21,534 bases of DNA from a virus: IMG/VR virus record IMGVR_UViG_3300040807_000614, positions 1 through 21,534 of that record; one strand, given 5' to 3'. Position numbers and translations under genes: made by a program. The first letter of the stretch is position 1. Each line of letters begins with the position of its first letter. This document shows positions 240 through 17,219 of this stretch, piece after piece. The notes beneath the pieces were generated by a model. That model was not told where the DNA came from. It saw nothing but the letters and a program-made list of their open reading frames with translations, and searched no databases.

Positions 240-484
240 TATGGTGTTCCTTGAGTAAATCTATAGTCGTAAAAGTCTTTATTAATTTCACCATTTACCA
301 GAGTTTTTCCTGGCTTCCTGCATTTAATATAAGTTTGAGTTGTGTGACCACCTGAGTTAGGTACTGTAAATGTTCTGACACCCGCGGAGACCGTTCCTGG
401 AGAGTCAACATAGGTATCAGCAGCGGTTGCTGTATTTTCATATTCCCATGTTCCATTACTTCCTGGTACTGTTACGAATGCCAT
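239..484 (-). CDS. Small putative virion protein (81 aa)
   Basis: An 81-residue protein starting MAFVTVPGSNGTWEYEN and rich in Gly, Thr, Ser and Tyr, with no membrane segment and no motif I recognise. I chose the ATG at 484 because it forms a TAATG overlap with the upstream stop and has an AAAGGG ribosome site 11 bases upstream; an in-frame GTG at 496 abuts that ribosome site and is less likely. Its stop overlaps the start of the next structural gene. Composition and position in a late operon suggest a small virion component, for example a capsid decoration or neck/tail accessory protein, but this is context only. Confidence 0.65.
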   Translation of the reverse strand: MAFVTVPGSNGTWEYENTATAADTYVDSPGTVSAGVRTFTVPNSGGHTTQTYIKCRKPGKTLVNGEINKDFYDYRFTQGTP

Positions 485-1716
485 TATTTTTGCCACCCTT
501 TAATATATTCAGGACTGAAGTTTGCTTTACTAAATTCAAGTCGGTCAACAATCTTTAATGCATTTGTTCCGTATTGGTCAATCGCAACAAATCCTTCTTG
601 ACCTGTCACCTCAAATCCTTTATTTGTTTTAAGCAGAGTACGAATACCTTGAACTTTATTTAATTTATTTATAATCACACCTTTAATATCAACAAGTTTA
701 TCATATAGTGTAAATATCTCTTCAATCTTTCTCAGATTTGATTTTGAAAAGATTGCTAAAGTTGCTGCCGCTTTATCCATTTGTGTTTTCTTACCAGCAG
801 GTGTCTTTCTTGCGTCAGCTTGTTTTCTATAGTAATCTTGTATGTATTTCTGAAGTCCTGCTACGAAAGGTTTAATTGCACCTACACGTTGTCCTTCTCT
901 TACTTTTGAATTAATGTATGTATTTACTTTTTGATTTAAATCTTCGTTATTACTAAACTCGTTTAAAATTTTTGCGTCTATCTTTCTGAATAATCTACCT
1001 GCTTCAGATAGCATATCCGTAATATCTTTGTTCTCTTCTTTTGTAAATGTTGCTGAACCTGATATATCTTTAAATGTTGCGTCTACGTGCCATACTGTTT
1101 TAACTTCTTTGAGTTTTGATGAGATCGCCTGACCAAAACTTGCAGACATTGAGTCAAGAGTTGGTCCTCCGTATGTTGTATGCCAGACCACACCGATTTC
1201 TGATTCTGATATTTTTTTACCGAGGTCTGATGATTTAGGTACCGCGTAAACAATGGTATTAGGATGGAAAGTAACATGCGGTTCTCCATCAATATTTTCT
1301 GTTTTAAGATCGCTTTTTGAATATAAGAAATCACCTTGTACTACTCCTTCAATTCCTATCTTGGCAAGTTCACTTAATGCAATTTTAAATTTAGCATTGA
1401 GGTCACCTGATAGGTCATTATCTATTTCTGCGTTTGTTTTATATAGTTTTGGAGTTTTATTAAATACTCCTTTCTTTGCGACAAAGAATTTTCCATCACT
1501 TGGGTCTTTACCAGCAAAGATCGCAGGAGCACCGTCCCACTTTGTTGTTAAACTAACAGGAGCTGCAGTGTTTCCTGAAAGCATATCGCGAATATTGCGA
1601 ATATAGTTAATTACGTTTCTTGTTCCTGTCACACCACCATCAATAACGGCATCCTCAAGATGAGTCATATGTAGATTCTGCGCAGCTTCCGCTATGTATT
1701 GATTATACGACTTCAT
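484..1716 (-). CDS. KWDG-motif protein with capsid-targeting-like N-terminus (410 aa)
   Basis: The N-terminus MKSYNQYIAEA closely matches the T4 internal-protein capsid-targeting sequence (MKTYQEFIAEA, from memory). IAE-A at residues 8-11 fits the gp21 prohead-protease consensus (L/I)xE-(A/G). Residues 59-62 are KWDG, the shape of the KxDG lysine motif I of covalent nucleotidyltransferases (RNA/DNA ligases, capping enzymes), within LTTKWDGAPAIFAG. QGDFLYS (127-133) could be motif III, and IGVVWHTTYGG (174-184) may be the motif IV region. Similar proteins occur as conserved hypotheticals in marine T4-like phages. The start overlaps the upstream stop by 4 bases (1713-1716). Inference: packaged in the head, processed, and possibly injected; ligase-like activity is unproven. 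Confidence 0.8.
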   Translation of the reverse strand: MKSYNQYIAEAAQNLHMTHLEDAVIDGGVTGTRNVINYIRNIRDMLSGNTAAPVSLTTKWDGAPAIFAGKDPSDGKFFVAKKGVFNKTPKLYKTNAEIDNDLSGDLNAKFKIALSELAKIGIEGVVQGDFLYSKSDLKTENIDGEPHVTFHPNTIVYAVPKSSDLGKKISESEIGVVWHTTYGGPTLDSMSASFGQAISSKLKEVKTVWHVDATFKDISGSATFTKEENKDITDMLSEAGRLFRKIDAKILNEFSNNEDLNQKVNTYINSKVREGQRVGAIKPFVAGLQKYIQDYYRKQADARKTPAGKKTQMDKAAATLAIFSKSNLRKIEEIFTLYDKLVDIKGVIINKLNKVQGIRTLLKTNKGFEVTGQEGFVAIDQYGTNALKIVDRLEFSKANFSPEYIKGWQK

Positions 1717-2573
1717 TTACGATCCTTTAACCTTGAATAACCTTTATGTCTAAAATCTTTTTCAACTCTTTTATGAACCATAGCAGCAACATCATCTAAA
1801 TCTTTAAGATTACTTCCTCTCTTTAAATCTTTTTCCAATTTCTTTTTTAAATCGGAAAGCAATGAATCTAAGACAGCAGAGTCAGGAGCAGCTAATGTTG
1901 ACTCAACCATTGAAGGTTTAAAAGAATTAATCCATTTAACTGCCTTTGGATTTGTTACTGGTTTATCAGCAAATGCCTTACCCCATTTATAACCTTGCTG
2001 CGCTACGTTTGTCAATTGTGTTCCATCAGAGTTATCAAGGATTAACATATTGTTTTTAAAGAATCCTTGGAATCGACCGATGTTCTTTTGAACTGCTTTC
2101 CATAATGTGACAACAGTTGTAGTTGGCAATGATCTTTGTCTCTCGTCATTGCGCTTAATTGCTGTATCTAAATCTGTGTTTACAAAAATCATTGCTACAT
2201 CATAACCTAATGCTTTTAAATTCATTGCTTGATTTCTGATTTTCTCTTCGTCTTTACCAGTTCCGTCAATGACTAAACCTAATCGACCTTCAATATATCT
2301 TTCAAATTGAATACCAGTTAATCGTTTTGCTTTATCTCTTATTGCTTGTCCTTGAGCAGAAAAGATTGTTTCAGGGTCCATTGTCAATCCTGCTTTCTCC
2401 ATTGCTCTTTCAAATGCAATGTCAGAATTTACAATTTTAAATCCATGAGTAGCCAATGATGTTTGACCAACCATAAAAGATTTACCTGAACCTGGTCCAC
2501 CTGCTAAAAAGATTGCTTTAAAGATCGCAGGATCATTTGGTCCTTCGTTTACAAAATCTTTATACTGCTTCAT
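1713..2573 (-). CDS. P-loop kinase-like protein (zeta-toxin/AAA_33 type) with capsid-targeting-like N-terminus (286 aa)
   Basis: A Walker A motif GGPGSGKS sits at residues 25-32 in FLAGGPGSGKSF, followed by a Walker B-like LVIDGTGKD (100-108) and an Arg-rich lid-like KRNDERQRSLP (140-150). This resembles zeta-toxin-like kinases and the polynucleotide-kinase-like AAA_33 group, so the likely reaction is ATP-dependent phosphorylation of an unknown nucleotide, RNA or sugar-nucleotide substrate. The N-terminus MKQYKDFVNEG again resembles the T4 capsid-targeting peptide, and VNE-G (8-11) is close to the head-protease consensus, with Val in the L/I position. The C-terminus is a Lys-rich helical region. 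It overlaps both neighbours by 4 bases, so the three genes are translationally coupled. Confidence 0.8.
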   Translation of the reverse strand: MKQYKDFVNEGPNDPAIFKAIFLAGGPGSGKSFMVGQTSLATHGFKIVNSDIAFERAMEKAGLTMDPETIFSAQGQAIRDKAKRLTGIQFERYIEGRLGLVIDGTGKDEEKIRNQAMNLKALGYDVAMIFVNTDLDTAIKRNDERQRSLPTTTVVTLWKAVQKNIGRFQGFFKNNMLILDNSDGTQLTNVAQQGYKWGKAFADKPVTNPKAVKWINSFKPSMVESTLAAPDSAVLDSLLSDLKKKLEKDLKRGSNLKDLDDVAAMVHKRVEKDFRHKGYSRLKDRK

Positions 2574-4012
2574 AGTGTTACCTCACCAGGAATGTTAGAA
2601 GCAAACGCAATATCTAATCCTAGGAACTTCATTAAACTACTAAACATCTTTTTACCTAGAGAAGCAATCTTTTTCAATATACCAGACACTTTCTTTATAA
2701 CAGCTTTAATTGCATTGTTTACTTTGTCAATTAATACTTTACCTATTGACTTTGCCTTGCTTGCGGCTCTTTTTAACATATCTAAAGGTCCTTCTGCAAG
2801 AAAGTCTTCAGTTAATAATCCATCAACCTGAGACAGTTCTTCCATTACTAAACCATGAAATGTTTGAACCTCTTCTTTAATTGAAAGACGGAATGCAGAG
2901 TAAGCAGGACTTGCTCCACCACCTTTCTTAAATGCTACATAAGGTTTAACTGACTGAGAATATTTTACAATAATAGGATCGTGAATTGTATTGATTGGTT
3001 CTAATACAACTGTACCTGAAGGGTCAAACTTACCTAATAAATTAGCTGCAGCTTTAGAATTAGGAGAACCAAATTTTTGATTACCTGTACTTGCTTCTAA
3101 TACAACATATTTAGAAAACATTGTATTTGCTTCGGTGTTTGAATTGATATAACTTTCCAACATAGCAGATAATTCTTTATTACCTTTATCTTTTTTCTCA
3201 AAGTCAATAACTGCATCGTTCTTTTCACCGGCCTTTGAAGATTTGCTCAATGCCGTAACTGATTCTTTTGAAATTAGAACAGTCATATTCTCTTCCATTG
3301 TGGAAACCAAATCTTGAGCAAACTTTTTCTCATTACCCATTTCAGCAAGGGCAGCTTTAACAATTGCGATTGCTTCTTTCTTTTCGGCTGAAGCTAATTG
3401 AGAACCACCTGCTTTCTTTAATGAAATCTTTTCGTTGAAGTCAGAAGATGCAATATCCGTCTTTGGAGTTTTATTCCTTGCGCCAGATTCTTTCCATATA
3501 GGACCAAGACTTACTGAACCAATACCACGACCAGTTTGAACTAACTGTTTGGCAGATAAACCTTTCTTAAAGTTTTCGGCAATTGTAAATGATTGTTCTG
3601 AGTACTTATCCCAATATTTCATTGCGACTTCTTCTGTCGCAGGATCTGTACTTACACCATTTAATTTATTATAAGCAAATACAATAAGGTCTTCCCACTC
3701 TGCACCAGAAGGAATACCTCCTCCTTCTTTATAATGAGTGAAGGCAGATGACTTATAGCCTTGTCCGCCTTTTAATCGAATAACCTTTCCATCAGGTCCT
3801 TTAATAAATTTCTCAATTTCACCAGTTTCTTTACCTACTGAAACTTCGACTTTACCGCCTGATACTATTTCAAATACATCACCCTTAGTATAACCAAGTT
3901 TGCCTAGTTCAGCAAAGTCGGTACCTTTCCATACAACCTTATGACCAATTACATAGTCGGGTTTCATTAGAGAAGCTTCATTGATAGAAGCAAATGTTTT
4001 AAATCTGCGCAT
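2570..4012 (-). CDS. Head-associated protein with nuclease-like core and cationic C-terminus (480 aa)
   Basis: First gene behind the late promoter at 4047-4054; a CAGG ribosome site precedes the ATG at 4012. The N-terminus MRRFKTFASINEA carries INE-A (10-13), a prohead-protease-type site. EWEDLIVFAYN (105-115), TPKTDI (182-187) and KISLKKAGGSQL (195-206) have the order and spacing of some PD-(D/E)xK nucleases of the T-D-I...SLK type (candidate Asp186 and Lys199), so a DNA-binding or nuclease role is possible. FLAE-G (404-408) is a second candidate cleavage site, after which residues 411-468 form Lys-rich amphipathic helices. Similar proteins are conserved hypotheticals in marine T4-like phages. 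Function is not established. Confidence 0.75.
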   Translation of the reverse strand: MRRFKTFASINEASLMKPDYVIGHKVVWKGTDFAELGKLGYTKGDVFEIVSGGKVEVSVGKETGEIEKFIKGPDGKVIRLKGGQGYKSSAFTHYKEGGGIPSGAEWEDLIVFAYNKLNGVSTDPATEEVAMKYWDKYSEQSFTIAENFKKGLSAKQLVQTGRGIGSVSLGPIWKESGARNKTPKTDIASSDFNEKISLKKAGGSQLASAEKKEAIAIVKAALAEMGNEKKFAQDLVSTMEENMTVLISKESVTALSKSSKAGEKNDAVIDFEKKDKGNKELSAMLESYINSNTEANTMFSKYVVLEASTGNQKFGSPNSKAAANLLGKFDPSGTVVLEPINTIHDPIIVKYSQSVKPYVAFKKGGGASPAYSAFRLSIKEEVQTFHGLVMEELSQVDGLLTEDFLAEGPLDMLKRAASKAKSIGKVLIDKVNNAIKAVIKKVSGILKKIASLGKKMFSSLMKFLGLDIAFASNIPGEVTL

Positions 4013-4046
4013 AAATAACCTGTGTTAAATCTAGTGTACTTTAGTT

Positions 4047-4054
4047 TATTTATA
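4047..4054 (-). promoter_or_regulatory. T4-type late promoter for the capsid-targeted gene operon
   Basis: The minus strand reads TATAAATA, the exact T4 late -10 box recognised by the gp55 sigma factor with gp33 and the gp45 clamp. It lies between the end of gp41 (4064) and the start of the 480-aa gene (4012), leaving a leader of about 30 bases. The position separates early replication genes from virion genes, as expected. Confidence 0.75.
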
Positions 4055-4063
4055 CAGATAAGT

Positions 4064-5506
4064 CTATCTAAGTTCTACATCTCCAAAGACATTTTTACCA
4101 GGTTTACGTTTATTTAGCCTAAGGCCAATATCGGTCTTGTCAAATACAGGACCATCATCATAATTCTGTTTCTTTCCCGGCGATTGACCACCTCCAGGAC
4201 CGTCAAGATTTATATTGCTCTGAGCCGATTCTTCCAACTCATAAATCTTCATCTTTGCTCTTTCGATACCAACTAGGAATCTTCGATAATAACTGATGTC
4301 TCCCCAACGATTCTTCAACTGTTTAATCATCAGTTGATTCATTTCGTCAAGGTATTCAGAACTAACAAGACCAAAGATTGCATCTGCCGTATGAGTAATA
4401 CCCATAGATTCAGAAGTATTTGTTAAGTCAACATCAGAGTTACCATAAGCGTCTCTGTTATATTGAGAAGATGTAACGATTGCACAATTGTATTCCATTG
4501 CCAATCCACGAACTTCTTCTGCGATTGATTTAACTAAAGTATAACTGTTTGCCGCTGCTGCACCTTTAACTCGAGAGGAAGAACAAATATTCAGGTAATC
4601 TAAAAAGATAACATCAGGACTGAAGTTCTTTTTAAGTTTGAGTTCATTCAGCAAATGTCTGAAATGACCACTATGTGCAGAGCCTGTTGGAAATTCTTTA
4701 ATAACCAACTTACCTGTTGTCTTTGTTTTGTAACGAGCCATTCTTTTTTCAAATACATCACGAGGTACTTCAGCAACTTCGTCCAAAGTAATATCCATAA
4801 TGTTTGCGTCAATGCGACGGCCGATTTCTTCAGCAGCCATTTCCATTGTAATATACAGAACATTCTTTCCATACATCAAATGATTTGCTGCCATGTGACA
4901 TTTAAGTAAAGACTTACCACCACCTGTTGTTGCCAACAAGACAGTCATAGATTTACGAGGTATGCCACCTTTTGTAATTTTGTTAAGGATGTCAATATCA
5001 AATGGAATCCTTTCTTCTTTGCGATGATAATGTTCATAACGATCGTCAACATCTTCAAGGAAATCATGACCTACTGATTGGTCAAAACTGATACCTAAAC
5101 TATCAGATAGCAACCTTGGTATTTCACCTTTTCCTTGGTCAGTATTTTGTCCGTCAAGAATAAGGATTGACTTTCGGATACTATTATATAAATCTTTATC
5201 TTGACAAAACTTTTCCGTTTCATCAATTAAAAATTCTATATTGGTATCTTTATCAATAGTCATTTCACTAACTAATTGATGAACACCTTGATATGTATCT
5301 TCAGTCAGATCCTTTCTTTTATCAACAGCAATCTTTAAAGCTTCAAGAGAAGGCGGCTCCTTGTACTTTTCTAGGTACTCGGAAGCCGTCTCAAATACTT
5401 TACGAAGAACGGTATCATCAAAGTAATCTTCTTTAAGATAAGGATATACCTTTCGGCAATAGTCCTCATTCAGAATCAGATTCGATAGTATCGTCTTCTC
5501 GAGCAT
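4064..5506 (-). CDS. 41: Replicative DNA helicase gp41 (DnaB-like)
   Basis: DnaB-family hexameric 5'-3' helicase that unwinds DNA at the phage fork and partners the primase. The N-terminal helical domain (about residues 1-110) contains YPYLKEDYF. The RecA-like domain has Walker A ATTGGGKS (about 192-199) and Walker B VIFLDYLNIC (about 300). Its length of 480 aa is close to T4 gp41. I chose the ATG at 5506 because GGAGGG lies about 5 bases upstream; in-frame ATGs at 5509 and 5521 are possible, but the last would place the ribosome site inside the gene. It overlaps the end of uvsX by about 41 bases and is co-transcribed with it. Its loader gp59 lies upstream in the same block. Confidence 0.95.
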   Translation of the reverse strand: MLEKTILSNLILNEDYCRKVYPYLKEDYFDDTVLRKVFETASEYLEKYKEPPSLEALKIAVDKRKDLTEDTYQGVHQLVSEMTIDKDTNIEFLIDETEKFCQDKDLYNSIRKSILILDGQNTDQGKGEIPRLLSDSLGISFDQSVGHDFLEDVDDRYEHYHRKEERIPFDIDILNKITKGGIPRKSMTVLLATTGGGKSLLKCHMAANHLMYGKNVLYITMEMAAEEIGRRIDANIMDITLDEVAEVPRDVFEKRMARYKTKTTGKLVIKEFPTGSAHSGHFRHLLNELKLKKNFSPDVIFLDYLNICSSSRVKGAAAANSYTLVKSIAEEVRGLAMEYNCAIVTSSQYNRDAYGNSDVDLTNTSESMGITHTADAIFGLVSSEYLDEMNQLMIKQLKNRWGDISYYRRFLVGIERAKMKIYELEESAQSNINLDGPGGGQSPGKKQNYDDGPVFDKTDIGLRLNKRKPGKNVFGDVELR

Positions 5507-6530
5507 CATTTCCCTCCACATTAGTCAGCTTGTACTTTCTTTCAACAAATTTATTAAATGAATCGTTTTGGATTAGGTCTTGGAAGAAACTATCATCTTC
5601 TTCAATATCCTTTCCTCTACGTTTCGGTTCAATAATTTCACCAGTTTCAAGGTCAGTCAAATTATACCATCCTTGTGTTGCCTTTGTAATATGACCGGAT
5701 TCAATCGCAAGATCCATTAAGGAACTCCACTTTTGAATACCTGAATCATATAATACTTTAAACGGCAGCTTTGCTTTTTCTTTTACGTATCTTGACTTTT
5801 CAATATTGATAGTAAATTTCCAACCTGCTAGGTCAGTACCATCTTTCTCTTGGGCCTTAGATATAATAAAGATTTGATTCGCAGAATAGTAAATACCTGT
5901 ACCACCTGAAATAATGTTCTTAGGAAATAACCCAATCTCTTTATATGTATGGTTAACTGCGATACAAGGAATATCCTTTGTAGTCAGTTTAGGTGTAATG
6001 ATTCTGAACAATGACTTGAGTGCTTTTGCTCTCGACATATCCGCTACTGATTTTTCATTCATAGCATCCTCAACTTCTTTCTTCGAAGCAAGGTTACCGA
6101 TTGAGTCAATCATTAGGAATACATTGTCACCTTTCGATACTTCGTCCAATCTTTTTGTAATATCAAACTTTAGTTGTTCAACATCTTCAATTGGAATGTG
6201 AAGTACTCTTGTTGTATCAATATCAAAAGATTCTAAATACTCAGGTGTAATACCATATTCAGAATCGTATAACAAAGCAACACCTTTCGGGTACTTTTTC
6301 AAATAAGCCTTCATACAATATAAGCCGAGCAAAGTTTTGAAACTTTTTGATTCTCCTGCTACAACTGTAAGACCTGGGATAAGACCACCTTTCAACGAAC
6401 CACTAAATGCAATATTTACAATAGGTAGTTCTGTTTGAATAGGATCCTTATCTTTAAAGAAAGCAGAATCAGATAGAGCAGATGCCTGCTTTATTGACCC
6501 AGCTTTTAACATTTTATCGAGTAAACTCAT
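5466..6530 (-). CDS. uvsX: RecA-like recombinase UvsX
   Basis: Strand-exchange ATPase that forms filaments on ssDNA and drives recombination-dependent replication and repair in T4-like phages. Walker A is GESKSFKT at residues 59-66, with the distinctive UvsX form G-x-SKSFK, and Walker B is VFLMID at 137-142. Length is 354 aa, compared with about 390 in T4. The start is the ATG at 6530 with GGAG seven bases upstream; an in-frame GTG at 6542 is less likely because it would contain the ribosome site. The C-terminus is acidic (EGNDAREDD), as in ssDNA-metabolism partners of gp32. It follows the 94-aa gene by one base and overlaps gp41. Confidence 0.95.
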   Translation of the reverse strand: MSLLDKMLKAGSIKQASALSDSAFFKDKDPIQTELPIVNIAFSGSLKGGLIPGLTVVAGESKSFKTLLGLYCMKAYLKKYPKGVALLYDSEYGITPEYLESFDIDTTRVLHIPIEDVEQLKFDITKRLDEVSKGDNVFLMIDSIGNLASKKEVEDAMNEKSVADMSRAKALKSLFRIITPKLTTKDIPCIAVNHTYKEIGLFPKNIISGGTGIYYSANQIFIISKAQEKDGTDLAGWKFTINIEKSRYVKEKAKLPFKVLYDSGIQKWSSLMDLAIESGHITKATQGWYNLTDLETGEIIEPKRRGKDIEEDDSFFQDLIQNDSFNKFVERKYKLTNVEGNDAREDDTIESDSE

Positions 6531-6531
6531 T

Positions 6532-6816
6532 TTATTCTCCACTTAAAATTTGATGTAACTTATCGGCAAACGCATCAAGTTTCTCATATCGGTTTGGCCA
6601 ATATATGTAATCCTTTTCTGGGTTAGCTTTTAAGTTGTTCAATAACGGTACGACCGCATCATATAGTAATTGAGCCTTAGCAGCGTTCTGTTCAGCAGAA
6701 GCAGATGTTGTTTCAACCTGTTCCTTTGCTTGTTGAACTACTTCCAATTCATCGGCGTCAACAGCAGTAAAACCAAAATCAAAATCAAGTATAGTGGTTT
6801 CTTTTTCTATAGACAT
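6532..6816 (-). CDS. Conserved small protein between gp32 and uvsX (94 aa)
   Basis: A 94-residue acidic protein. The N-terminal DFDFGFTAVDADEL stretch is followed by a predicted helix (about 25-60) and then a conserved-looking ANPEKDYIYWPNRYEKLDAF segment near the C-terminus. I recognise this pattern as a conserved hypothetical of marine T4-like phages with no assigned function. AAGGAG sits six bases before the ATG. It is the first gene after the terminator behind gp32 and is coupled to uvsX, so a role in recombination or replication is plausible by context only. Confidence 0.8.
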   Translation of the reverse strand: MSIEKETTILDFDFGFTAVDADELEVVQQAKEQVETTSASAEQNAAKAQLLYDAVVPLLNNLKANPEKDYIYWPNRYEKLDAFADKLHQILSGE

Positions 6817-6864: not shown

Positions 6865-7791
6865 TTAACTACGTGCCAATTCCTTAAAGATACTAAGGTC
6901 ATCATCATCATCACTAGCGGTTGAGCCTACATTAGGTTCAGCCGTTGCCATTACTGGTTCAGCTGTATCGTTGGACATATCAGATAAATCCAATTCATCA
7001 GCAGTTTCAGTTACCGGTGCAGAAGCAGTCGGTTCATCATTTTGTAAATCAAGAACACGATAGAGTTTAGTTTTCAACTCGGAATATGACTTGAAGTTCT
7101 TTTCAGAAACAATTTCTTCGAGAGAATGTTGTTCTCCCCAAATTCTTTCCAACTCAGCATCGTCTTCAGACAATGGTGAAGCAGGGTCGAACTCAGACTT
7201 GTCATAGTTAGGATAACCTTCAAACTGTCTGATTTTGAGACGGAAGTTTGCTCCTTCCCATAGGTCAAACGGATTTACTGGATCCTCATCTTCAAAAGTT
7301 GGATTCATTAAATCATTCAACTTATCAAAGATTTTCTTACCGAATTGATAAAGGAATACTTTACCTTCGTTTTCAGGATTGCCTGAATCTTTAACGATAT
7401 AGACATTAGCAGTATACTTGAGCCTGCGCTTTTGCTTACGTGCTTGGTCTTTATCAGATTCAACTCCACTATTCCACAGTTTAGAATTAAACTCAGAAAC
7501 AGGATCATCCTGGTTCAATGTGGTTAGTGAATTTTCGATATACCATAAACCTGTAGGTCCTTGGAATCCATGATCCCACAACCTTACGAAAGGCATTTCT
7601 TCACCTTGAGGTGCAGGCAAGAAACGGATTACTGCGAATCCATTACCAGCTTTGTCTCTCGTTGGTTTCCAAAATTTTCCTGCGTTAGGGTCTTGGTATG
7701 ATTTTGAAGATATCTTTTCAAGTTGAGAGTTCAACTTATCCAAGGTCTTCGTGCGATTCTTCTTCAGAGAAGAGAAGTCTGTTAGTGCCAT
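6865..7791 (-). CDS. 32: Single-stranded DNA-binding protein gp32
   Basis: T4-type ssDNA-binding protein (308 aa) that coats replication intermediates and recruits gp59, UvsX and polymerase. The basic N-terminus (SSLKKNRTKTLDKLNSQL) corresponds to the cooperativity region, the OB-fold core includes FAVIRFLPAP (52-61) and a KQKRRLKY stretch, and the C-terminus ends in a five-Asp acidic tail before LSIFKELARS. The T4 zinc site uses His plus three Cys. Here the DHGF His (74) remains but the whole protein has no cysteine, so zinc binding of that type is absent. An AAGGAG ribosome site precedes the ATG. It is isolated from downstream genes by a terminator. Confidence 0.95.
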   Translation of the reverse strand: MALTDFSSLKKNRTKTLDKLNSQLEKISSKSYQDPNAGKFWKPTRDKAGNGFAVIRFLPAPQGEEMPFVRLWDHGFQGPTGLWYIENSLTTLNQDDPVSEFNSKLWNSGVESDKDQARKQKRRLKYTANVYIVKDSGNPENEGKVFLYQFGKKIFDKLNDLMNPTFEDEDPVNPFDLWEGANFRLKIRQFEGYPNYDKSEFDPASPLSEDDAELERIWGEQHSLEEIVSEKNFKSYSELKTKLYRVLDLQNDEPTASAPVTETADELDLSDMSNDTAEPVMATAEPNVGSTASDDDDDLSIFKELARS

Positions 7792-7827: not shown

Positions 7828-8433
7828 TTAAATATCAAACCGTTCCTTGACCATTGTCTTAAAACGATTTGGTTCAAACTCCAAGAAAGGTTTATACTTT
7901 CTGGATTTGTCTATTATATCAAAACTAACATGTTTGTCAACTATTTTCTCACTCCAGTACGAAAATATATTCGCCATGAAAGCTAAAATAGTAAACGTCT
8001 CAAGACTAATCTTCTTTTGTAATAACAATGTCATCACAAGAGGATGTTGTCCATCGACTGATATAAAGTTTCGCTTGTATTCATCATTAAGATGAGCAAG
8101 CTCGGATTTGAAGACATAACCTAATGATTCTATCTTTTTCCTCCAATTCATATATCTGGCTTCGCCTTCGCTGTCAAGCAAATCGCGTACCCAGATGTTT
8201 TTATTTATTAAAAGATTACTTAAAATGAGTCCTTGAACATCATCTTTTTTCGCTAATTTTGCGAATGAATAGGCATCGTTTCGAGACATAAATGTTTCGT
8301 AATTTGCACGTACCTTTCCATTGTATTTAAAGTAATCGTAATTGTCCGTTGTAAAATGTTTTTTCAATGCTAAGAATTTAACATAAGCATTAAAACTATC
8401 ATCACTTGCTAAAGTCTGTGATATCTTGTTCAT
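7828..8433 (-). CDS. 59: Helicase loader gp59
   Basis: Loader that places gp41 helicase on gp32-coated fork DNA. The 201-aa length is close to T4 gp59 (about 217). The N-terminal region has the family pattern FNAYVKFLALKKHFTTDNYD, then FKYNGKV and FMSRNDAYSFAKLAKK. The protein is basic and helical throughout. It overlaps the end of gp33 by 32 bases and lies 36 bases before gp32, giving gp33-gp59-gp32 as in T4. GAAGGA lies just before the ATG at 8433. An internal promoter-like sequence for gp32 lies near its 3' end. Confidence 0.92.
   Translation of the reverse strand: MNKISQTLASDDSFNAYVKFLALKKHFTTDNYDYFKYNGKVRANYETFMSRNDAYSFAKLAKKDDVQGLILSNLLINKNIWVRDLLDSEGEARYMNWRKKIESLGYVFKSELAHLNDEYKRNFISVDGQHPLVMTLLLQKKISLETFTILAFMANIFSYWSEKIVDKHVSFDIIDKSRKYKPFLEFEPNRFKTMVKERFDI
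7913..7940 (-). promoter_or_regulatory. Possible internal sigma70 promoter for gp32, inside gp59
   Basis: Within the gp59 coding sequence the minus strand reads TTGACA, 16 bases, TATAAT, with both hexamers at consensus. A start here would give a leader of roughly 115 bases before gp32. The spacer differs from the exact 17 of the intergenic promoters, and the hexamers are also constrained by coding, so it may be coincidence. Confidence 0.4.
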
Positions 8434-8677
8434 CTTCCTTCTTCACCATCTTTAAAGTAACTGCCTCAGTCCGAATCTTTTCTTTCAAGATAGAACTCTT
8501 CTTTACGATTTGAGCAATTGTTTCTATTTCAATTCCATTCTTCTCGGAGAAGTCGACTAAGGCGTCAATATATGGAACTCCTTTTGAAATATGTTTGCTT
8601 ATTTCGTGATGGATTTTATCGGGTGTTAGAGCTACAACGGACATATCAGTTTTTTCCTTTGAATTCTTTTTTGTCAT
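8402..8677 (-). CDS. 33: Late transcription coactivator gp33
   Basis: A 91-aa helical protein matching the small gp33 family of T4-like phages. It bridges the gp45 sliding clamp and host RNA polymerase to activate late promoters with gp55. The region KIHHEISKHISKG-VPYIDALVDFSEKNGIEIE (about 21-53) followed by KEKIRTEAVTLKMVKK shows the family order. It lies immediately upstream of and overlapping gp59, the T4 gene order. AAGG is five bases before the ATG. Two sigma70-type promoters lie directly upstream (8689-8807), so it would be made early, ready for the late promoters seen elsewhere in the window. Confidence 0.85.
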   Translation of the reverse strand: MTKKNSKEKTDMSVVALTPDKIHHEISKHISKGVPYIDALVDFSEKNGIEIETIAQIVKKSSILKEKIRTEAVTLKMVKKEDEQDITDFSK

Positions 8678-8871: not shown

Positions 8872-8899
8872 AAGTATAACACCAAAAGTGTCTATACTT
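8872..8899 (-). terminator. Hairpin terminator at the end of the bilin operon
   Basis: On the minus strand AAGTATA pairs with TATACTT, then after one bulged G, ACAC pairs with GTGT around a TTTTG loop; TTG follows the stem, so the T tail is poor. The stem spans the stop codon of the bilin reductase gene. It is AT-rich and thus weaker than the one behind gp32, but it is placed to separate the bilin genes from gp33. Confidence 0.6.
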
Positions 8900-9587
8900 C
8901 TTCAAATAAAACATTCTCTACATATTGATTCTTGCGTTCTTCAGGTACACCCATTGCGAGTATTGAAGAATGAAGCATCTTATTCATTTTCTGATTACGA
9001 CAATATTTGTTCTGTGCTTCTTTTGTATTCAGACAATCTAATTTCTGATGAACAGGATTTCCCATCTCTGAACAATAAAAAGTAACTAAGTTCAAAGCCA
9101 TCTGACAAAGTTGGTCTGTTTCTAATCCTTCTCTTATTGAACCTGCGCCTACAATATTTTCGGAAAAGATTTCTTTTGCCCAGTCAGGCATCTCTCTTGC
9201 TCTTGTCCAAGTTAGTTCTTCGGTTTCGTATTTAAACTTATCTAGGAATACATGACCTCGGTCGTGAAGTGGAGAGTAATCGCAAAAGCAACCTGATATC
9301 TTTTTAGGATTAGCAACAATATCTAAACCAAAGATAGGAAGGTCAACATCAAACTCAGGAAACACATTAATATGCATTAACCACAATTTGTTTTTACCTA
9401 CAGGTTCAATTGTTTTTAAATGACATTTGCGAATAATGTCGTTTGACCAAAAGTGATCTTCCCAACCGTTTAAGTCTGCTGTGTGTTTAGGATTATCATA
9501 ACGTTCCATATAGGAATCAAACACATTACAGATTTCCTCTGATAAATTTCTCAATCTATCAAAGAGAGGACTTTCAATTTTATTCAT
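8892..9587 (-). CDS. pcyX: Ferredoxin-dependent bilin reductase, PcyA/PcyX type
   Basis: A 231-aa member of the ferredoxin-dependent bilin reductases, which reduce biliverdin to phycobilins. GWEDHFWSND (41-50), LWLMHINVFPEFD (68-80), DLPIFGLDIV (82-91) and CFCDYSPLHDRG (100-111) follow the PcyA-like order; Asp103 fits the conserved catalytic Asp. The sequence is unlike cyanophage PebS as I recall it. Phage PcyX enzymes are described as making phycoerythrobilin by four-electron reduction; assigning this gene to PcyX rather than PcyA rests on phage context. I chose the ATG at 9587, which overlaps the heme oxygenase stop by 8 bases and has GGGAAGA upstream; the frame extends to 9701 but would overlap heme oxygenase by over 120 bases. 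Confidence 0.88.
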   Translation of the reverse strand: MNKIESPLFDRLRNLSEEICNVFDSYMERYDNPKHTADLNGWEDHFWSNDIIRKCHLKTIEPVGKNKLWLMHINVFPEFDVDLPIFGLDIVANPKKISGCFCDYSPLHDRGHVFLDKFKYETEELTWTRAREMPDWAKEIFSENIVGAGSIREGLETDQLCQMALNLVTFYCSEMGNPVHQKLDCLNTKEAQNKYCRNQKMNKMLHSSILAMGVPEERKNQYVENVLFEEV

Positions 9588-10200
9588 TGTCTTCCCAACC
9601 GCCCATCTGTCTTGCCATCGCATAATTTTCTGGTTCGTAATCTTCTGCGTTGTTTCGATAGTTTTCCATGAGCTCGTGGAATAACCTTTCTGCATATTCA
9701 AAACATATCATTGCTTCGTCAGCCATTCCATCATGTAATAATTCTCTTACTTGTTTAATCAACTCTGCTCTGTTTTCAAATTCATACATAAGACCTGCGC
9801 CGGGAACATTTCTTTTAATGATTTGACCACCGTGAGCATCTCCAAAGTGTCTTACATACAAATGAGCAAGTAATGCTTCGTTATCACCATCTTCGAGAAG
9901 TTTATGAATATGTTTATTATATTCTATAACGGATTCAAAGTTTTCTTCAACTTCTTCTAAATCGTAAGTAGATTGTAATTCTGATAAATCTTCTTCAATT
10001 AAAGTTGACCTAAAGATAGGTTCTAATTCCATCGGTACTTCAACCGCTGATTCCAATACCATATAATTTTGTAATTGGGCGTGTAAATATTCTTGGTAAA
10101 GTTTAGGACTGATATTCCCAGAAAGTAACATATCGGCAAATTCAGTTCTTTCTGCGTTATCGTGGTGTTGCCTTGTTAGTTCTTTTAAATTGTTTGCCAT
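9580..10200 (-). CDS. ho1: Heme oxygenase (biliverdin-forming)
   Basis: Cleaves heme to biliverdin, Fe2+ and CO using ferredoxin-supplied electrons. At 206 aa it is slightly short of cyanobacterial HO1 (about 240). The proximal heme ligand is His13 in TRQHHDNAE (family pattern HxxAE), and the distal helix is RHFGDAHGGQIIKR (about 116-129) with the family GDxxGG. The C-terminal FEYAERLFHELMENY also fits the fold. GAGGAAA precedes the ATG at 10200. It is translationally coupled to the bilin reductase, which would take its biliverdin. The leader begins at the late promoter box at 10240-10247, implying late expression. Confidence 0.93.
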   Translation of the reverse strand: MANNLKELTRQHHDNAERTEFADMLLSGNISPKLYQEYLHAQLQNYMVLESAVEVPMELEPIFRSTLIEEDLSELQSTYDLEEVEENFESVIEYNKHIHKLLEDGDNEALLAHLYVRHFGDAHGGQIIKRNVPGAGLMYEFENRAELIKQVRELLHDGMADEAMICFEYAERLFHELMENYRNNAEDYEPENYAMARQMGGWEDNE

Positions 10201-10251: not shown

Positions 10252-10291
10252 ATTGCTGAACTCAATTGTATATATCTCAATGGGAGAACTT

Positions 10292-11038
10292 ATGAAAAAT
10301 AAAGTACAATTTGATGATGTAAAAAGTGAAGCTATTAAAAAAGCAGAAATGGCAAAAATTGCATATGAAGATGGTAAGGAAGCCAAACCATTATTCAAAG
10401 CATTAGGTTATACCGGTCATAAATTTATTGATAAAGACGGCGCACAAGCTCATTGTGTTTGGAATAAAGAAGAATTCGTTCTATGTTGCCGCGGTACTGA
10501 ACCTACAGAACTCAACGACCTTAAAGCAGATTTAAATATTTGGCCTGATAAGGCTCAAGTTGGTGGTTGGGTACATAACGGTTTCCAAAACGAAGTTGAC
10601 GATATCTGGGAAGACGTTATGAAAGAATTTGGAAAACATTCAGATAAAAAGATTTCAATTTGTGGACATTCATTAGGTGGAGCAATGGCAACAATTGCTG
10701 CTTCAAGATTAAAAGTACACAAACCTGTTCTATATACATTTGGATCACCAAGAGTTGGTAATGCCGAGTTTGTAAAGAACATGTCAAGTGTTGAACATTA
10801 TCGTTTTGTTAATAACAATGATTTAGTTACAGTCATACCACCTTGGGTTATGGGTTACCGTCATCACGGTACAGTTATGTATTTTAACTATAACGGTATT
10901 ATCAAGAACCTTGCTTGGTGGAGAAAGTTGAAAGATAAACTACGAGGTATTGTGACTTCGTGGATTAATCTAAAGCCTTTTGACGGCCTTGCAGACCACT
11001 CAATGGATAACTATACAAAATATACTAAGGACAACTAA
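10292..11038 (+). CDS. Class 3 lipase family protein
   Basis: Alpha/beta-hydrolase of the lipase class 3 group, expected to cleave acyl esters of glycerolipids. The nucleophile is Ser127 in CGHSLGGAMA (124-133), the likely acid is Asp177 in NNNDLVTVIPP, and the likely catalytic His is 236 in DHSMDNY. The oxyanion-side CCRGTE (65-70) and TFGSPRVGN (149-157) are also typical. Length is 248 aa. There is no signal peptide, so it would act in the cytoplasm or at the inner membrane. I chose the ATG at 10292, preceded by GGGAGA, over one at 10253, which would start near the promoter. Its stop overlaps the next start (TAATG). It begins a six-gene late cassette with several membrane proteins. Confidence 0.9.
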   Translation: MKNKVQFDDVKSEAIKKAEMAKIAYEDGKEAKPLFKALGYTGHKFIDKDGAQAHCVWNKEEFVLCCRGTEPTELNDLKADLNIWPDKAQVGGWVHNGFQNEVDDIWEDVMKEFGKHSDKKISICGHSLGGAMATIAASRLKVHKPVLYTFGSPRVGNAEFVKNMSSVEHYRFVNNNDLVTVIPPWVMGYRHHGTVMYFNYNGIIKNLAWWRKLKDKLRGIVTSWINLKPFDGLADHSMDNYTKYTKDN

Positions 11039-11406
11039 TGGACATTTTAGAGAGGCTATTATCAGATACCTTATGGATTTATACAGCAATCCTTGGTTCA
11101 ATCGCAGGCGCAGGATTCTTGTTTTGGTTTAAAGATACAAGAATGGCAACTTGGGCGGTAGCAAAATTTGACGGTATTTTAGAATATCTTGTAATTCGTT
11201 GGGGTTGGACTTGGTTACAAAATGACCCTGAGGCTTGGAGAAAAAAGTATCCTCGTATTACTGGAAAAATTGATGAGCTTGAAGATAGAATAGAAATTCT
11301 TGAAGTAGATTCACATCCTCCTGTTGCTCCTGGTGGAACAACTGAGCTTAAATCGTTGATTGATGATATCAATAAAAGATTAGATAATCTTGAAAAGAAA
11401 AAGTAA
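11038..11406 (+). CDS. Membrane-anchored coiled-coil protein (122 aa)
   Basis: One N-terminal membrane segment (about residues 11-31, LWIYTAILGSIAGAGFLFWF) is followed by a Trp-rich stretch (WGWTWLQNDPEAWRKKYP) and two heptad-like helices (about 74-90 and 104-122, ending KRLDNLEKKK) separated by a Pro/Gly linker (HPPVAPGGTT). I recognise similar conserved hypotheticals in marine T4-like phages; function unknown. TAATG overlaps join it to the lipase upstream and the Fe-S carrier downstream. The layout (short N-terminus, one membrane span, soluble coiled coil) could suit a spanin-like or scaffold role, but nothing is diagnostic. Confidence 0.8.
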   Translation: MDILERLLSDTLWIYTAILGSIAGAGFLFWFKDTRMATWAVAKFDGILEYLVIRWGWTWLQNDPEAWRKKYPRITGKIDELEDRIEILEVDSHPPVAPGGTTELKSLIDDINKRLDNLEKKK

Positions 11407-11720
11407 TGGAACTAACCGATGCAGCAATATCTAAAGCAATTGAAAAAACGTCAGGATCGCAACCTAGCTATATTAGGTTGGGTGTCACTGCTGGTGGGTG
11501 TGTTGGGTTTGAGTATATTATTGAATATGCTAATAAAATTAATAATGATGATATTGTAACTGATTACGGAAAGTTTAAGATAGTCATAGATAAGTTGTCC
11601 GAGTCGTATCTTAAAGATGCAACATTGGATTGGATGAAGGAAGGATTGAACGAATCGTTTAGAATTATCAATCCAAACGAAACCGCTTCTTGCGGTTGTG
11701 GAGTATCAATAGGATTTTAA
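11406..11720 (+). CDS. A-type iron-sulfur carrier (IscA/HesB-like)
   Basis: A 104-aa A-type Fe-S cluster carrier. The three conserved cysteines are Cys32 in AGGCVGFEY and Cys96/Cys98 in SCGCGVSIGF, with the family spacing C-x63-C-x-C; FKIVID (57-62) and FRIINPNETASCGCG are also typical. Such proteins accept and pass on 2Fe-2S or 4Fe-4S clusters, and homologues occur in marine T4-like phages. It is coupled by TAATG to the gene before it. The bilin reductase and heme oxygenase across the shared promoter depend on ferredoxin, so a link with Fe-S supply or with iron released from heme is conceivable but inferred. Confidence 0.92.
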   Translation: MELTDAAISKAIEKTSGSQPSYIRLGVTAGGCVGFEYIIEYANKINNDDIVTDYGKFKIVIDKLSESYLKDATLDWMKEGLNESFRIINPNETASCGCGVSIGF

Positions 11721-11721
11721 A

Positions 11722-11883
11722 ATGGAATTTATATTATTAGCAATTATGCTAACTTCTGTGACCTACTGTGTGGTAAGCTTGCTATTCATTAGGGAAGGAA
11801 GTAAAGGTATCACTAAACCTTACGTAACTAAAGACGGTAAGAAACATACCGCTCGGAAGTCTCGTATAGATTATATAGTGTAA
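11722..11883 (+). CDS. Small single-pass membrane protein (53 aa)
   Basis: Starts MEFILLAIMLTSVTYCVVSL, one hydrophobic span at residues 2-23, then a basic tail (about 24-53) rich in Lys and Arg. There is one base between the IscA-like stop and its ATG, so it is probably translated by coupling; no separate ribosome site is clear. The charge pattern predicts the N-terminus outside and the basic tail in the cytoplasm. It is in the same frame-tight operon as the lipase. No family is recognised. Confidence 0.65.
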   Translation: MEFILLAIMLTSVTYCVVSLLFIREGSKGITKPYVTKDGKKHTARKSRIDYIV

Positions 11884-11902
11884 AATAAAAAAGGAGAAAA
11901 AT

Positions 11903-12067
11903 ATGTTAGATTTTATTAAAGATAGATTAGTCGAAAGAACTTCATTAGACGGTGGCGTACTAATCGCAATATGCGGGTCTATAATTTTATTCGGTGGTAT
12001 TGTAAAACTTGCAGCCTGGGTTGGTCTAGGTTGGGGAGTATATACTTTAGTTAAAGGCGAAAAATAA
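11903..12067 (+). CDS. Small membrane protein (54 aa)
   Basis: Begins MLDFIKDRLVERTSLDGG, an amphipathic charged N-terminus, followed by a long hydrophobic region (about 19-50) that could form one long or two short spans, ending KGEK. An excellent AAGGAG ribosome site lies 7 bases before the ATG, the first strong one in the cassette, implying high expression. Similar short proteins with ERTSLDG occur in marine T4-like phages as conserved hypotheticals. Size and topology are compatible with a small holin-like or membrane-stress protein. It overlaps the next gene as TAATG. Confidence 0.75.
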   Translation: MLDFIKDRLVERTSLDGGVLIAICGSIILFGGIVKLAAWVGLGWGVYTLVKGEK

Positions 12068-12390
12068 TGGAAGAAGAACTTAAAGCAAGCGGACATCATC
12101 CTGCTGATACAAATGGAGACGGTAAAGTTTCCAAAGTCGAAGAGGCAATGTATTTAGAGTTTAAGAGAAAAGAACTCGAAGACCAGGATGCAATGAGAGA
12201 TGCACAACGTAGTATGGCATGGTTCTCATTATATGGAATGTTAGCATATCCTGTTTTAGTAATCGGATCCAATGTGGTCGGTTATGAAAAGGCAGCTGAT
12301 ATCTTGGGCGATATGGCAGGAGTATATTTTATTGCTGTTGCTGGTATTGTTGCTGCATTCTTTGGTGCACAAGCTTGGACTAAAAAGTAA
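12067..12390 (+). CDS. Two-span membrane protein with an EF-hand-like loop (107 aa)
   Basis: Residues 14-25 read DTNGDGKVSKVE, a 12-residue EF-hand-type loop with Asp14, Asn16, Asp18, Gly19 and Glu25 in the calcium-ligand positions, flanked by a helix (YLEFKRKELEDQDAMRDAQR). Two hydrophobic segments follow (about 50-72 and 82-104), and the protein ends TKK. This would put a possible Ca2+/Mg2+-sensing loop on the cytoplasmic face. Homologues are common conserved hypotheticals in marine T4-like phages. It is the last gene of the late cassette, 3 bases before a hairpin terminator. Confidence 0.82.
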   Translation: MEEELKASGHHPADTNGDGKVSKVEEAMYLEFKRKELEDQDAMRDAQRSMAWFSLYGMLAYPVLVIGSNVVGYEKAADILGDMAGVYFIAVAGIVAAFFGAQAWTKK

Positions 12391-12393
12391 AGG

Positions 12394-12412
12394 AAGGGGC
12401 GCAATGCCCCTT
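12394..12412 (+). terminator. Hairpin terminator between convergent operons
   Basis: AAGGGGC pairs with GCCCCTT around a GCAAT loop; the T-rich stretch TTATTATTT follows on the plus strand. It directly follows the EF-hand gene. On the minus strand the same stem is followed by CCTTTACTTTTT, so it may also stop transcripts arriving from the gene at 12416. Confidence 0.85.
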
Positions 12413-12415
12413 TTA

Positions 12416-12679
12416 TTATTTCTCTACTGAATGTAGAGTTTCTATTTTGACGGTGTCATGATAATCACCATCGGAAAAATCTCTAATAGCGGTTTCTTTA
12501 TATAAGTAACCATCTTTAACTCTATAAGAAACAACTTCTTTTCTAAATACACCTTCCATTTTACTTAACGAAGTTTTAAACGGTCCTTCGTTATATACAT
12601 CAAATGGTTTGGTTGCTTCGTCAATCATCTTTTTCTTAAGAGGTGTTAATACCTCAACATTGTGTCCTTTATAATTCAT
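12416..12679 (-). CDS. Conserved hypothetical protein (87 aa)
   Basis: Starts MNYKGHNVEVLTP and has a helical stretch (KKKMIDEATKPFDVYN) followed by predicted beta strands, including VVSYRVKDGYLYKETAIRDF and a GDYHDTVKIETL end. The VKDG-x-L-x-KET-x-R-x-F / DYxDT pattern resembles small conserved hypotheticals of marine T4-like phages. AGAGGA precedes the ATG. It lies last in the operon behind the tail-fibre-like gene. No function is known to me. Confidence 0.7.
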   Translation of the reverse strand: MNYKGHNVEVLTPLKKKMIDEATKPFDVYNEGPFKTSLSKMEGVFRKEVVSYRVKDGYLYKETAIRDFSDGDYHDTVKIETLHSVEK

Positions 12680-12682
12680 AAT

Positions 12683-13417
12683 TTATTCCTCTTCAGGGGG
12701 TTGTTGGTCTGGGTGAGTACCCTCTAACCATTGTAATCTTTCTGGGTCGTCTTCAGGTTCAAATTCTCCATCAACTCCTTCCTCACCAGGGATTGGTGTT
12801 GATGTTGTTAATCTAAGACCAGAATTACCAAGTTCGTTTTCTTGTATTGCATGAGCAGGAACAATAGTTGTGTTAGCTTCGCCTGGTACAATTTCACCTG
12901 CCATATCTCCATCTCGTGCTCGAGCCATTCGAGCATTCTGAATCCAATCAGGATTGTTTGTTACTGTATCATTATAAACAGTTGCTATATGGTCAAAGAA
13001 TGCTGTACCTGGTCCTAGTGTTTGAAAATCCCAAGTTAGGTAATTTACTTCGTCCCAAAATGCTTCTCTTGCTGCATGATATTCATCAGCATACATATAT
13101 GATTTACTTCCCGCTTGGTTGCGACCAATTAGTATCATTGTTCCAACGAAGTGAGTACCTTCTACAAATCCTGAAGACATTGTTAATGCATAACCATCTT
13201 CTGAACATACAAAAACAACTCCGCCTGCATCAGCTGAATTTAAATGAGATTGAAATTGTGTACGAATATATTCACGCTTTGCTTCATTGTCACCAGCAGC
13301 GACAGGTGTGCCTTCCCAAGGATAGCTTCCATTATTTAAGTTATCAATACAATCATCAAACATTCGGTTGAAGTCTGTATCGTTAATCTCTGTTATTAAA
13401 TCAAATCTTATTGCCAT
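12683..13417 (-). CDS. Unknown protein with acidic Pro-rich tail, next to tail-fibre-like gene (244 aa)
   Basis: Residues 1-170 look like a folded alpha/beta domain: an acidic helix (DTDFNRMFDDCIDNLN), a central AGGVVFVCSEDGYALTMSSGFVEG hairpin, then MILIGRNQAGSKSYMY and a helix with DEYHAAREAFWDEVNYL. The last 40 residues are Pro/Glu-rich and disordered (EEGVDGEFEPEDDPERLQW...QQPPEEE). I do not recognise the family; the beta-strand plus IGR...S-YMY arrangement faintly recalls acetyltransferase folds but lacks a clear acetyl-CoA loop. It lies 9 bases after the tail-fibre-like gene with its own ribosome site (AGGA), so it could be a fibre chaperone, adhesin modifier or virion protein. Confidence 0.7.
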   Translation of the reverse strand: MAIRFDLITEINDTDFNRMFDDCIDNLNNGSYPWEGTPVAAGDNEAKREYIRTQFQSHLNSADAGGVVFVCSEDGYALTMSSGFVEGTHFVGTMILIGRNQAGSKSYMYADEYHAAREAFWDEVNYLTWDFQTLGPGTAFFDHIATVYNDTVTNNPDWIQNARMARARDGDMAGEIVPGEANTTIVPAHAIQENELGNSGLRLTTSTPIPGEEGVDGEFEPEDDPERLQWLEGTHPDQQPPEEE

Positions 13418-13426
13418 TATATAATC

Positions 13427-14011
13427 CTATTGTGGTGTTTCAGGTGAAAGTACTGCTCCGTTTGAATAAGGAGCTGTACCAAAAACATAACTGTTTCCCC
13501 AAATCCAACTTGTCCTATTGTTGTTATAGTCTCTGTTCCAACTTGCGTTCGCGGTGTATAAAGTATATGAACCGTCGGTATATCGGTTAAACCAATTCCT
13601 TGGTAAAATACCTCTCATATAAATTACTTGAGAATAGTTTTGCTGATTTTTAAATGTTGTCCAAACTCGATAAAACGCAAGTATTGTTGCTCCTCGGTAA
13701 TTTGTTGGATTGATTGAACCCATCGCAGGAACAATCTCTCCGGTTGAATAACCATAGTTACGAATAAAGTTGGTGCCGATGAGAGCCTGACCACATACTA
13801 GATGCCAACCTCTATGTGTATTATAGAAGTCTGCCATATCAATTGTTCCGCTTGTAGGAACTGTTGTGTTATGTCCTGAACCGTAACTATGAACTCTCGT
13901 CGCATTAACACCGCCTCTATAGTATTCGGCCATGTCCGGACTACCACTCGCACCAAACTGGTTACGAATGTCATTCAAAGAAATTGTACCTGAACCTTGT
14001 AATCTACTCAA
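13427..14011 (-). CDS. Tail-fibre-like virion protein (194 aa)
   Basis: The N-terminal half carries two copies of a motif frequent in putative fibre/structural proteins of marine phages: SGTISLNDIRNQFG with PDMAEYYRGG (about 7-34), and VPTSGTIDMADFYNTHRG (51-68). The C-terminal half (70-194) is rich in Tyr, Asn, Trp and Gly, typical of beta-rich receptor-binding tips. The start is probably the TTG at 14011, which has GAGG nine bases upstream; no in-frame ATG precedes the first motif. A late-type box lies at 14033-14040. The short length suggests a fibre tip or a small adhesin that trimerises with another protein. Confidence 0.72.
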   Translation of the reverse strand: MSRLQGSGTISLNDIRNQFGASGSPDMAEYYRGGVNATRVHSYGSGHNTTVPTSGTIDMADFYNTHRGWHLVCGQALIGTNFIRNYGYSTGEIVPAMGSINPTNYRGATILAFYRVWTTFKNQQNYSQVIYMRGILPRNWFNRYTDGSYTLYTANASWNRDYNNNRTSWIWGNSYVFGTAPYSNGAVLSPETPQ

Positions 14012-14032
14012 TTGAATATACCTCTTTTGATA

Positions 14033-14040
14033 TATTTATC
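14033..14040 (-). promoter_or_regulatory. Candidate late promoter for the tail-fibre-like operon
   Basis: The minus strand reads GATAAATA, one base from the T4 late box TATAAATA, ending 21 bases before the TTG start at 14011 and overlapping the stop of the upstream gene. It sits where accessory genes change to a virion-type gene. Confidence 0.5.
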
Positions 14041-14251
14041 AATCAACGAGCAATTGGATTATTCCATTCTCCCAATTTTCTACAACGTCTCTTGCGTAAG
14101 ATTCACTTTTACCAGGAAGCTTCCTTGATTCTACTACTTGACCATTTTCCAATAAGTCCACAATATACATTGTATCTGGACCTCTTGAGCCTGATTCATT
14201 ATTACCCGTTACGGCTTCCCTACGAATATGTGCTTGTCGAGTTTTACTCAC
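14039..14251 (-). CDS. Small hypothetical protein (70 aa)
   Basis: Starts MSKTRQAHIRREAV with a basic N-terminus, then a Gly/Ser-rich loop and a compact segment YIVDLLENGQVVESRKLPGK, with a final helix (ARDVVENWENGII). The strand-turn-strand plus helix layout recalls small double-stranded-RNA-binding or DUF-type folds but is too short to assign. It overlaps the upstream membrane protein gene by 8 bases. No function recognised. Confidence 0.6.
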   Translation of the reverse strand: MSKTRQAHIRREAVTGNNESGSRGPDTMYIVDLLENGQVVESRKLPGKSESYARDVVENWENGIIQLLVD

Positions 14252-14426
14252 TTTCTTTCTCCAATTCAGATTTTAAAACAGGTACACCATGATGTGTATA
14301 CCCTATTACTTCATCTTTTTCAAATAGGTTATAAAAACTTACACCTATAATTCCAATCCATAAAACAACTCCACTCCATAATAAAAGCTTTGTTGATTCA
14401 TATGCTAATTTATCCAAAAACGACAT
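14244..14426 (-). CDS. Small single-pass membrane protein (60 aa)
   Basis: Starts MSFLDKLAYESTKLLLWSG, has one hydrophobic span (about 15-33, LLLWSGVVLWIGIIGVSFY), and a charged C-terminal tail (LKSELEKESE). I chose the ATG at 14426 with GGAAAAG upstream, because extending to 14504 would overlap the next gene by 95 bases and add a very basic stretch unlike the rest. It overlaps the upstream gene by 17 bases. No family recognised. Confidence 0.6.
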   Translation of the reverse strand: MSFLDKLAYESTKLLLWSGVVLWIGIIGVSFYNLFEKDEVIGYTHHGVPVLKSELEKESE

Positions 14427-17216: not shown

Positions 17217-17219
17217 TCT

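Follow-up and report, generated by a model that had tools for sequence, protein, structure and literature searches.

Three adjacent minus-strand genes of a marine T4-like phage, in the viral sequence IMGVR_UViG_3300040807_000614 (the whole IMG/VR record of 21,534 bases, here called the window) encode putative enzymes whose N-termini carry a capsid-targeting sequence (CTS) of the kind found in bacteriophage T4. Lying downstream of the gp41 helicase gene, they are gene C, for a nuclease-like protein, gene B, for a P-loop kinase, and gene A, for a ligase-like member of the DUF6267 family. The whole is probably best explained as a late operon of enzymes that are packaged by way of their CTSs, cut by the prohead protease gp21 and ejected with the genome, and it is very likely that A, B and C are packaged in the virion of this phage. 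An original prediction had named the three open reading frames (ORFs) and their N-termini (MKSYNQYIAEA, MKQYKDFVNEG and MRRFKTFASINEA), and these are indeed as described; neighbours C/B and B/A overlap by 4 nucleotides. Its reading of these N-termini as targeting peptides is well supported by the T4 determinants, peptide modularity, a late promoter, gp21 and gp23 in relatives, and cyanophage virion proteomes.

Mutational mapping of the T4 CTS assigned targeting to residues 4 and 7, and gp21 processing after L/I-x-E to residues 8 and 10, while the first ten residues of T4 internal protein III (IPIII) are sufficient for packaging (PMC9026906). All three peptides hold aromatic residues at positions 4 and 7 (Y4/Y7 in A, Y4/F7 in B, F4/F7 in C), followed by a cleavage-site triplet that matches (L/I)-x-E exactly in A (IAE-A) and C (INE-A) and is near-consensus in B (VNE-G), just as had been claimed. 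The valine of B is replaced by I or L in 11 of 18 homologues, and in C two residues are inserted ahead of the protease site relative to T4. A search pattern was derived from the T4 peptide: two aromatic residues with two others between them, then hydrophobic-x-Glu after a gap of at most three residues. It recovered two T4 internal proteins, both beginning MKTYQEFIAEA, as a positive control. Across eleven sequences it matched at 26 out of 11,773 internal start codons (about 0.2%), which puts the chance occurrence of three adjacent pattern-bearing genes at about 1e-8 per triple. The pattern also matched a 61-residue ORF at 19481-19666 of the window, judged spurious.

Alignment of distinct homologous N-termini showed the peptide determinants to be kept in all three families. 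Among 32 sequences of family A the aromatic pair occurs in 29 and the full pattern in all, with E10 invariant and a linker of varying length behind it; among 18 of family B the pair is universal, the full pattern is found in 16 and E-G is invariant; and all 17 of family C retain the pair, the full pattern and [ILV]xE-A despite varying peptide length. Positions 3, 6 and 9 drift in homologues while the determinant positions stay. The stretch between aromatics and site in C differs by up to three residues (MRRFKTFVAEA, MRRFKTFASINEA, MKGFKTYIRSLSEA), but the site is never lost, and the C-family peptide persists to 22–26% identity, as in the distant homologues of Methylophilales phage Melnitz (MQGFKTFLSEA) and Pelagibacter phage HTVC008M (MLSFTGYSNLSEA), which are 25–26% identical and match with profile E of about 1e-13 to 1e-14. 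Judged by sequence, then, the three N-terminal peptides are real and match the T4 CTS at its mutationally mapped positions.

The same peptide occurs on cytidylyltransferases (locus L079 and phage C48C1), on a phrog_13937 protein, on a RimK-like ATP-grasp protein of Melnitz, and on a HAD protein found directly upstream of A in one relative (L075:4384-5001) and near A in another (L072:3200-3811). This HAD protein, a phosphatase of PNKP type, matches RNA-repair and polynucleotide-kinase profiles. In cyanophages, DUF6267 proteins begin right after the site position (MSKNTHLEHLED and similar) and have no usable upstream in-frame start carrying the peptide; this holds for the starts that were read, S-WAM2 having been set aside because its DUF6267 start is misannotated. 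The peptide is thus modular as far as these N-termini indicate, being found on unrelated proteins and present or absent within the DUF6267 family. Elsewhere, on the minus strand at 12834-14676 of G004 (locus L167), three consecutive uncharacterised genes all bear the peptide (MKNFKNFINEA, MKSFKQFVVEG, MLSFKKFISEN) and make up a putative second cargo cluster away from DUF6267. As for the protease, searches of seven complete isolate genomes and a 143-kb viral contig found both a gp21-type enzyme and gp23 in every one of them. In six relatives whose gp23 was inspected, this protein has, like T4 gp23, an LxE site around residues 50-58.

The box TATAAATA, the late promoter box of T4, stands 35-42 nucleotides before the start codon of C, where the original prediction had placed it ahead of the coupled genes. 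Its position is conserved: of 23 distinct sequences upstream of C homologues (56–99% identical in gene C), 22 have it at -38 to -44. A rarity of TATAAATA in the window was considered and dismissed (4 occurrences against 2.9 expected); only its conservation ahead of C carries information. The three genes probably make up one late operon behind this conserved promoter. Related viral contigs repeat the order C-B-A; the 108 loci compared include some overlapping ones, and all three genes were detected in 42 of them.

Published cyanophage proteomes, considered here as far as the accessible parts of the papers and their lists extend, provide an independent comparison. Cytidylyltransferase/NMNAT enzymes were detected in purified virions of S-SM1 (PMC3037559), S-CREM2 (PMC10665884), S-SZBM1 (PMC9146016) and S-SCSM1 (PMC9602691; also record note), and two of these four sources left carry-over or contamination of virion enzymes open. 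All four virion-found cytidylyltransferases carry the peptide (MKKFSAFLNEA, MKNFSSFLTEA, MRFRQFIIEA, MKSFLQFLKEA). A scan of the S-CREM2 genome (OR473000; loci L202, L208), its pattern fixed before comparison with the virion list, returned three real genes and two antisense ORFs of under 55 residues. The real matches are a SAM hydrolase (3837-5081), an APH/ChoK-like kinase (10579-12846) and the cytidylyltransferase (124608-125468), and all three appear among the listed virion proteins (P=0.003 relative to ORFs that are not named structural), where the authors call them "regulatory" virion proteins (PMC10665884). A wider pattern, with five of seven matches in the list (P=0.0008), was set after the list was known and is not main evidence. 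By eye, ORFs 12, 13, 15 and 136 of the list also appear CTS-like, although ORF12 would qualify only with a CTG start codon or with a tag that lies internally.

Conversely, the peptide-less DUF6267 proteins of S-SZBM1 (141), S-SCSM1 (257) and S-CREM2 (58890-59777) are absent from the accessible virion lists of these phages. Loss of the peptide with the rest of the protein kept, named in the original prediction as evidence against it, does occur in this one lineage, but the protein is then also missing from the virion as far as these lists show, which speaks for targeting while confining it to certain lineages. The proposal that every DUF6267 protein belongs to the virion was dropped on the same grounds. 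The S-PM2 cytidylyltransferase is fused behind a peptide-less DUF6267, and this protein is stated not to have been seen in the S-PM2 virion (PMC3037559). At this locus (NC_006820, 103025-104804, compared with LN828717) the old record splits DUF6267 and cytidylyltransferase into two broken ORFs, and in BFVD the 591-residue S-PM2 protein, named cytidyltransferase, matches DUF6267.

Of the mature parts, A is a full-length DUF6267 protein (PF19782; E=2.8e-105, 353 bits against a cut-off of 27, residues 14-401; equivalents PHROG 455 and T4-GC 71), the only family returned by a Pfam scan. The motif I KxDG (K59-W-D-G62) is invariant in 38 sequences and a late EGFVAID..ALKIVDR block is conserved, and we take these blocks to resemble motifs I, IV and V of covalent nucleotidyltransferases. 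In a fold search (VIA) with a model of A (predicted local distance difference test, pLDDT, 74.9), 19 of the 20 best rows were RNA or DNA ligases with Z of 5-7, Trl1 and T4 ligases among them; Foldseek against the PDB gave nothing below E 0.1. A BFVD search led to an RNA ligase of Atu_ph07 (E 2.4e-4), the first match beyond DUF6267-type, uncharacterised and cytidyltransferase names and one NrdB entry. From motif and model A looks like a covalent nucleotidyltransferase, and the earlier label "nucleotidyltransferase-like" stands as regards motif I and the ligase fold match, which is consistent though weak, but not as regards a sequence-profile link to ligases.

The description of B as P-loop kinase-like was confirmed by matches to AAA_33 (40.2 bits, cut-off 27) and Zeta_toxin (33.9 bits, cut-off 22.3) and by an invariant Walker A sequence GGPGSGKS; B is close to zeta toxin and polynucleotide kinase profiles, and zeta toxin is its only PDB sequence match. 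In C, KTPKTD, SxK and E213 are invariant across 22–60% identical homologues, a signature resembling a variant of PD-(D/E)XK. Its model is poor (pLDDT 54.7), so that the label "nuclease-like" derives from this signature and not from a fold match or a recognised family. The last 73 residues of C are cationic and amphipathic (14 K/R, 4 D/E) and stand behind a conserved LxE site; this tail is possibly a second prohead-protease product acting on membranes, the second protease site being speculative.

For this phage we infer a pathway of packaging, cleavage, ejection and enzymatic action as follows. The aromatic pair at positions 4 and 7 would bind the prohead scaffold core, and (I/L/V)-x-E at 8-10 (10-12 in C) would be cut by a gp21-type protease, so that the enzyme is free inside the head by the time DNA is packaged. 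In mature form A would start at Ala11, B at Gly11 and C at Ala13, and all three would then be ejected with the genome and act ahead of phage gene expression: B would phosphorylate 5' ends and A seal them, while C would be an accompanying nuclease-like factor. Several observations weigh against this account. Neither gp21 nor gp23 lies in the window, a 21.5-kb fragment without the head gene block, and the virion mass spectrometry comes from cyanophages rather than from this phage or a close relative. The peptide carriers S-SZBM1 191 and 192 and the small S-SCSM1_30 are not on the accessible parts of their virion lists. Residue P1' is Q, E, D or S in 12 of 32 DUF6267 N-termini, and gp23 sites of relatives vary there too; a strict E/A or E/G cleavage rule was rejected for this reason. 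The DUF6267 peptide of HTVC008M is degenerate, and two B variants lack the hydrophobic-x-E spacing. As to the enzymes, C matched no known family in profile scans, the fold match of A is weak (best Z 6.9, root-mean-square deviation 4.5, 180 aligned), and hhalign of A against T4 Rnl1 and Rnl2 gave no match.

The most likely single job of the set is, tentatively, to heal and seal nucleic-acid ends that first-line host defences have cut, for which "cut, phosphorylate, join", as put forward originally, may be an apt summary. The broader proposal, that marine T4-like phages load into the head by the targeting peptide, and inject, an end-repair kit (nuclease-like factor, 5'-kinase and nucleotidyltransferase/ligase, with a 3'-phosphatase in sister lineages) for tRNA or DNA repair before expression, is rather unlikely. 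It is a serious possibility, though short of an even chance, that the proteins are packaged by their CTSs but serve host takeover or metabolism and not repair; for example, a zeta-like B may phosphorylate small molecules or proteins while A modifies a host target and C attacks host DNA. The zeta toxin match of B is in keeping with such a role, as are the metabolic nature of other CTS cargo (NMNAT/cytidylyltransferase, RimK-like protein, SAM hydrolase, APH/ChoK-like kinase) and the precedent of T4 Alt, an injected takeover enzyme cut by gp21 (PMC9026906), whereas the KxDG motif and ligase-type fold match of A, and the PNKP-type HAD phosphatase directly upstream of A in L075, point to nucleic-acid ends.

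That the peptide is instead a docking or localisation motif for a target other than the head (replisome, chaperonin or membrane), its likeness to the T4 CTS being convergent, is improbable. The genes adjoin uvsX and gp41 in several relatives, and packaging in this lineage is deduced from sequence and analogy, but a docking motif would have to coincide with four matched T4 functional positions, a conserved protease site, a late promoter and virion mass spectrometry in four cyanophages. Chance likeness, or shared N-terminal ancestry without function, is strongly disfavoured and very improbable: short as the motif is, and although a few spurious antisense ORFs match it, the low rate per start codon, the unrelated families that carry it, the selective retention of determinant positions and its presence or absence within one family all speak against this reading.

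Compared with known systems, the probably head-targeted set resembles T4 IPI, IPII and IPIII and Alt in its 10-residue N-terminal peptide with aromatics at 4 and 7 and (L/I)xE at 8-10, in late expression, and in having unrelated mature parts behind one conserved peptide. It differs in its cargo, since the T4 internal proteins are small and basic (IPI being an anti-restriction inhibitor) and Alt is an ADP-ribosyltransferase, whereas here ligase-like, kinase and nuclease-like proteins of 286-480 residues are concerned. The pairing of a kinase with a KxDG/KxxG-type nucleotidyltransferase recalls T4 Pnkp and Rnl1, which act in tRNA repair, and the fungal ligase-kinase Trl1, although A has no detectable sequence homology to Rnl1, and to our knowledge these are newly made or cellular enzymes without a packaging peptide. 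With the cyanophage virion cytidylyltransferase/NMNAT it shares the N-terminal peptide, a feature not reported in the accessible parts of the proteomics papers, and that enzyme lies in the same gene block beside DUF6267 in several phages; unlike that block, the window has no cytidylyltransferase, and unlike A, the checked cyanophage DUF6267 members lack the peptide. As precedents for injected proteins, T4 IPI acts against GmrSD and IPIII is needed on ECOR17 (PMC9391042), and it has been suggested in review that CTSs let T4-like phages load varied proteins (PMC9026906). A literature search found capsid targeting joined with cyanophages in one review only; the CTS principle is known, and its application to a set of enzymes by marine phages seems not to have been described before.

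Coordinates of the three-gene operon and its elements in the window; a slash marks the predicted cleavage site.
Feature	Position	Strand	Description
Gene A	484..1716	(-)	410 aa, DUF6267 (PF19782), ligase-like nucleotidyltransferase (putative), KWDG motif I at residues 59-62
Gene B	1713..2573	(-)	286 aa, P-loop kinase (AAA_33 / Zeta_toxin), Walker A GGPGSGKS
Gene C	2570..4012	(-)	480 aa, nuclease-like, no family matched; invariant KTPKTD-x10-SxK-x13-E core
A targeting peptide	1684..1716	(-)	MKSYNQYIAE/A, residues 1-11
B targeting peptide	2541..2573	(-)	MKQYKDFVNE/G, residues 1-11
C targeting peptide	3974..4012	(-)	MRRFKTFASINE/A, residues 1-13; gene C N-terminus MRRFKTFASINEA
Late promoter box TATAAATA	4047..4054	(-)	T4-type, upstream of the three-gene operon
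C C-terminal tail	2570..2791	(-)	residues 408-480, cationic amphipathic, behind second conserved LxE/G site

The surroundings are T4-like, with profile matches to gp41 helicase (4064-5521), UvsX (5466-6542), gp32 (6865-7791), gp59 (7828-8433) and a gp33-like late regulator (8402-8677). Beyond A come a short ORF and, after it, the beginning of a gene whose first 34 residues match PHROG 1645, a head/virion structural family (E=1.7e-4). Elsewhere in the window, a heme oxygenase gene stands beside a ferredoxin-dependent bilin reductase gene (8892-10200, minus strand; Pfam E 1e-20 and 8e-18) as a pigment pair, and unusual auxiliary genes encode a class 3 lipase (10253-11038, plus strand), an A-type iron-sulphur assembly protein (11406-11720, plus strand) and a phosphomannomutase-like HAD protein (15719-16426, minus strand). 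Four tRNA genes (Arg-ACG, Thr-TGT, Trp-CCA and Arg-TCT) at 15196-18204 on the minus strand would be of interest if the cargo repairs tRNA.

Through these observations the head-loading signal known from T4 is extended to marine phages of an abundant group, and its cargo to enzymes that are likely to act on nucleic acids. A simple sequence rule agrees with virion proteomes for NMNAT-like enzymes, a SAM hydrolase and a kinase, where contamination had remained possible, and the same rule predicts which uncharacterised phage proteins are injected. If the end-repair reading is true, such phages would bring a counter-defence to bear at time zero of infection.

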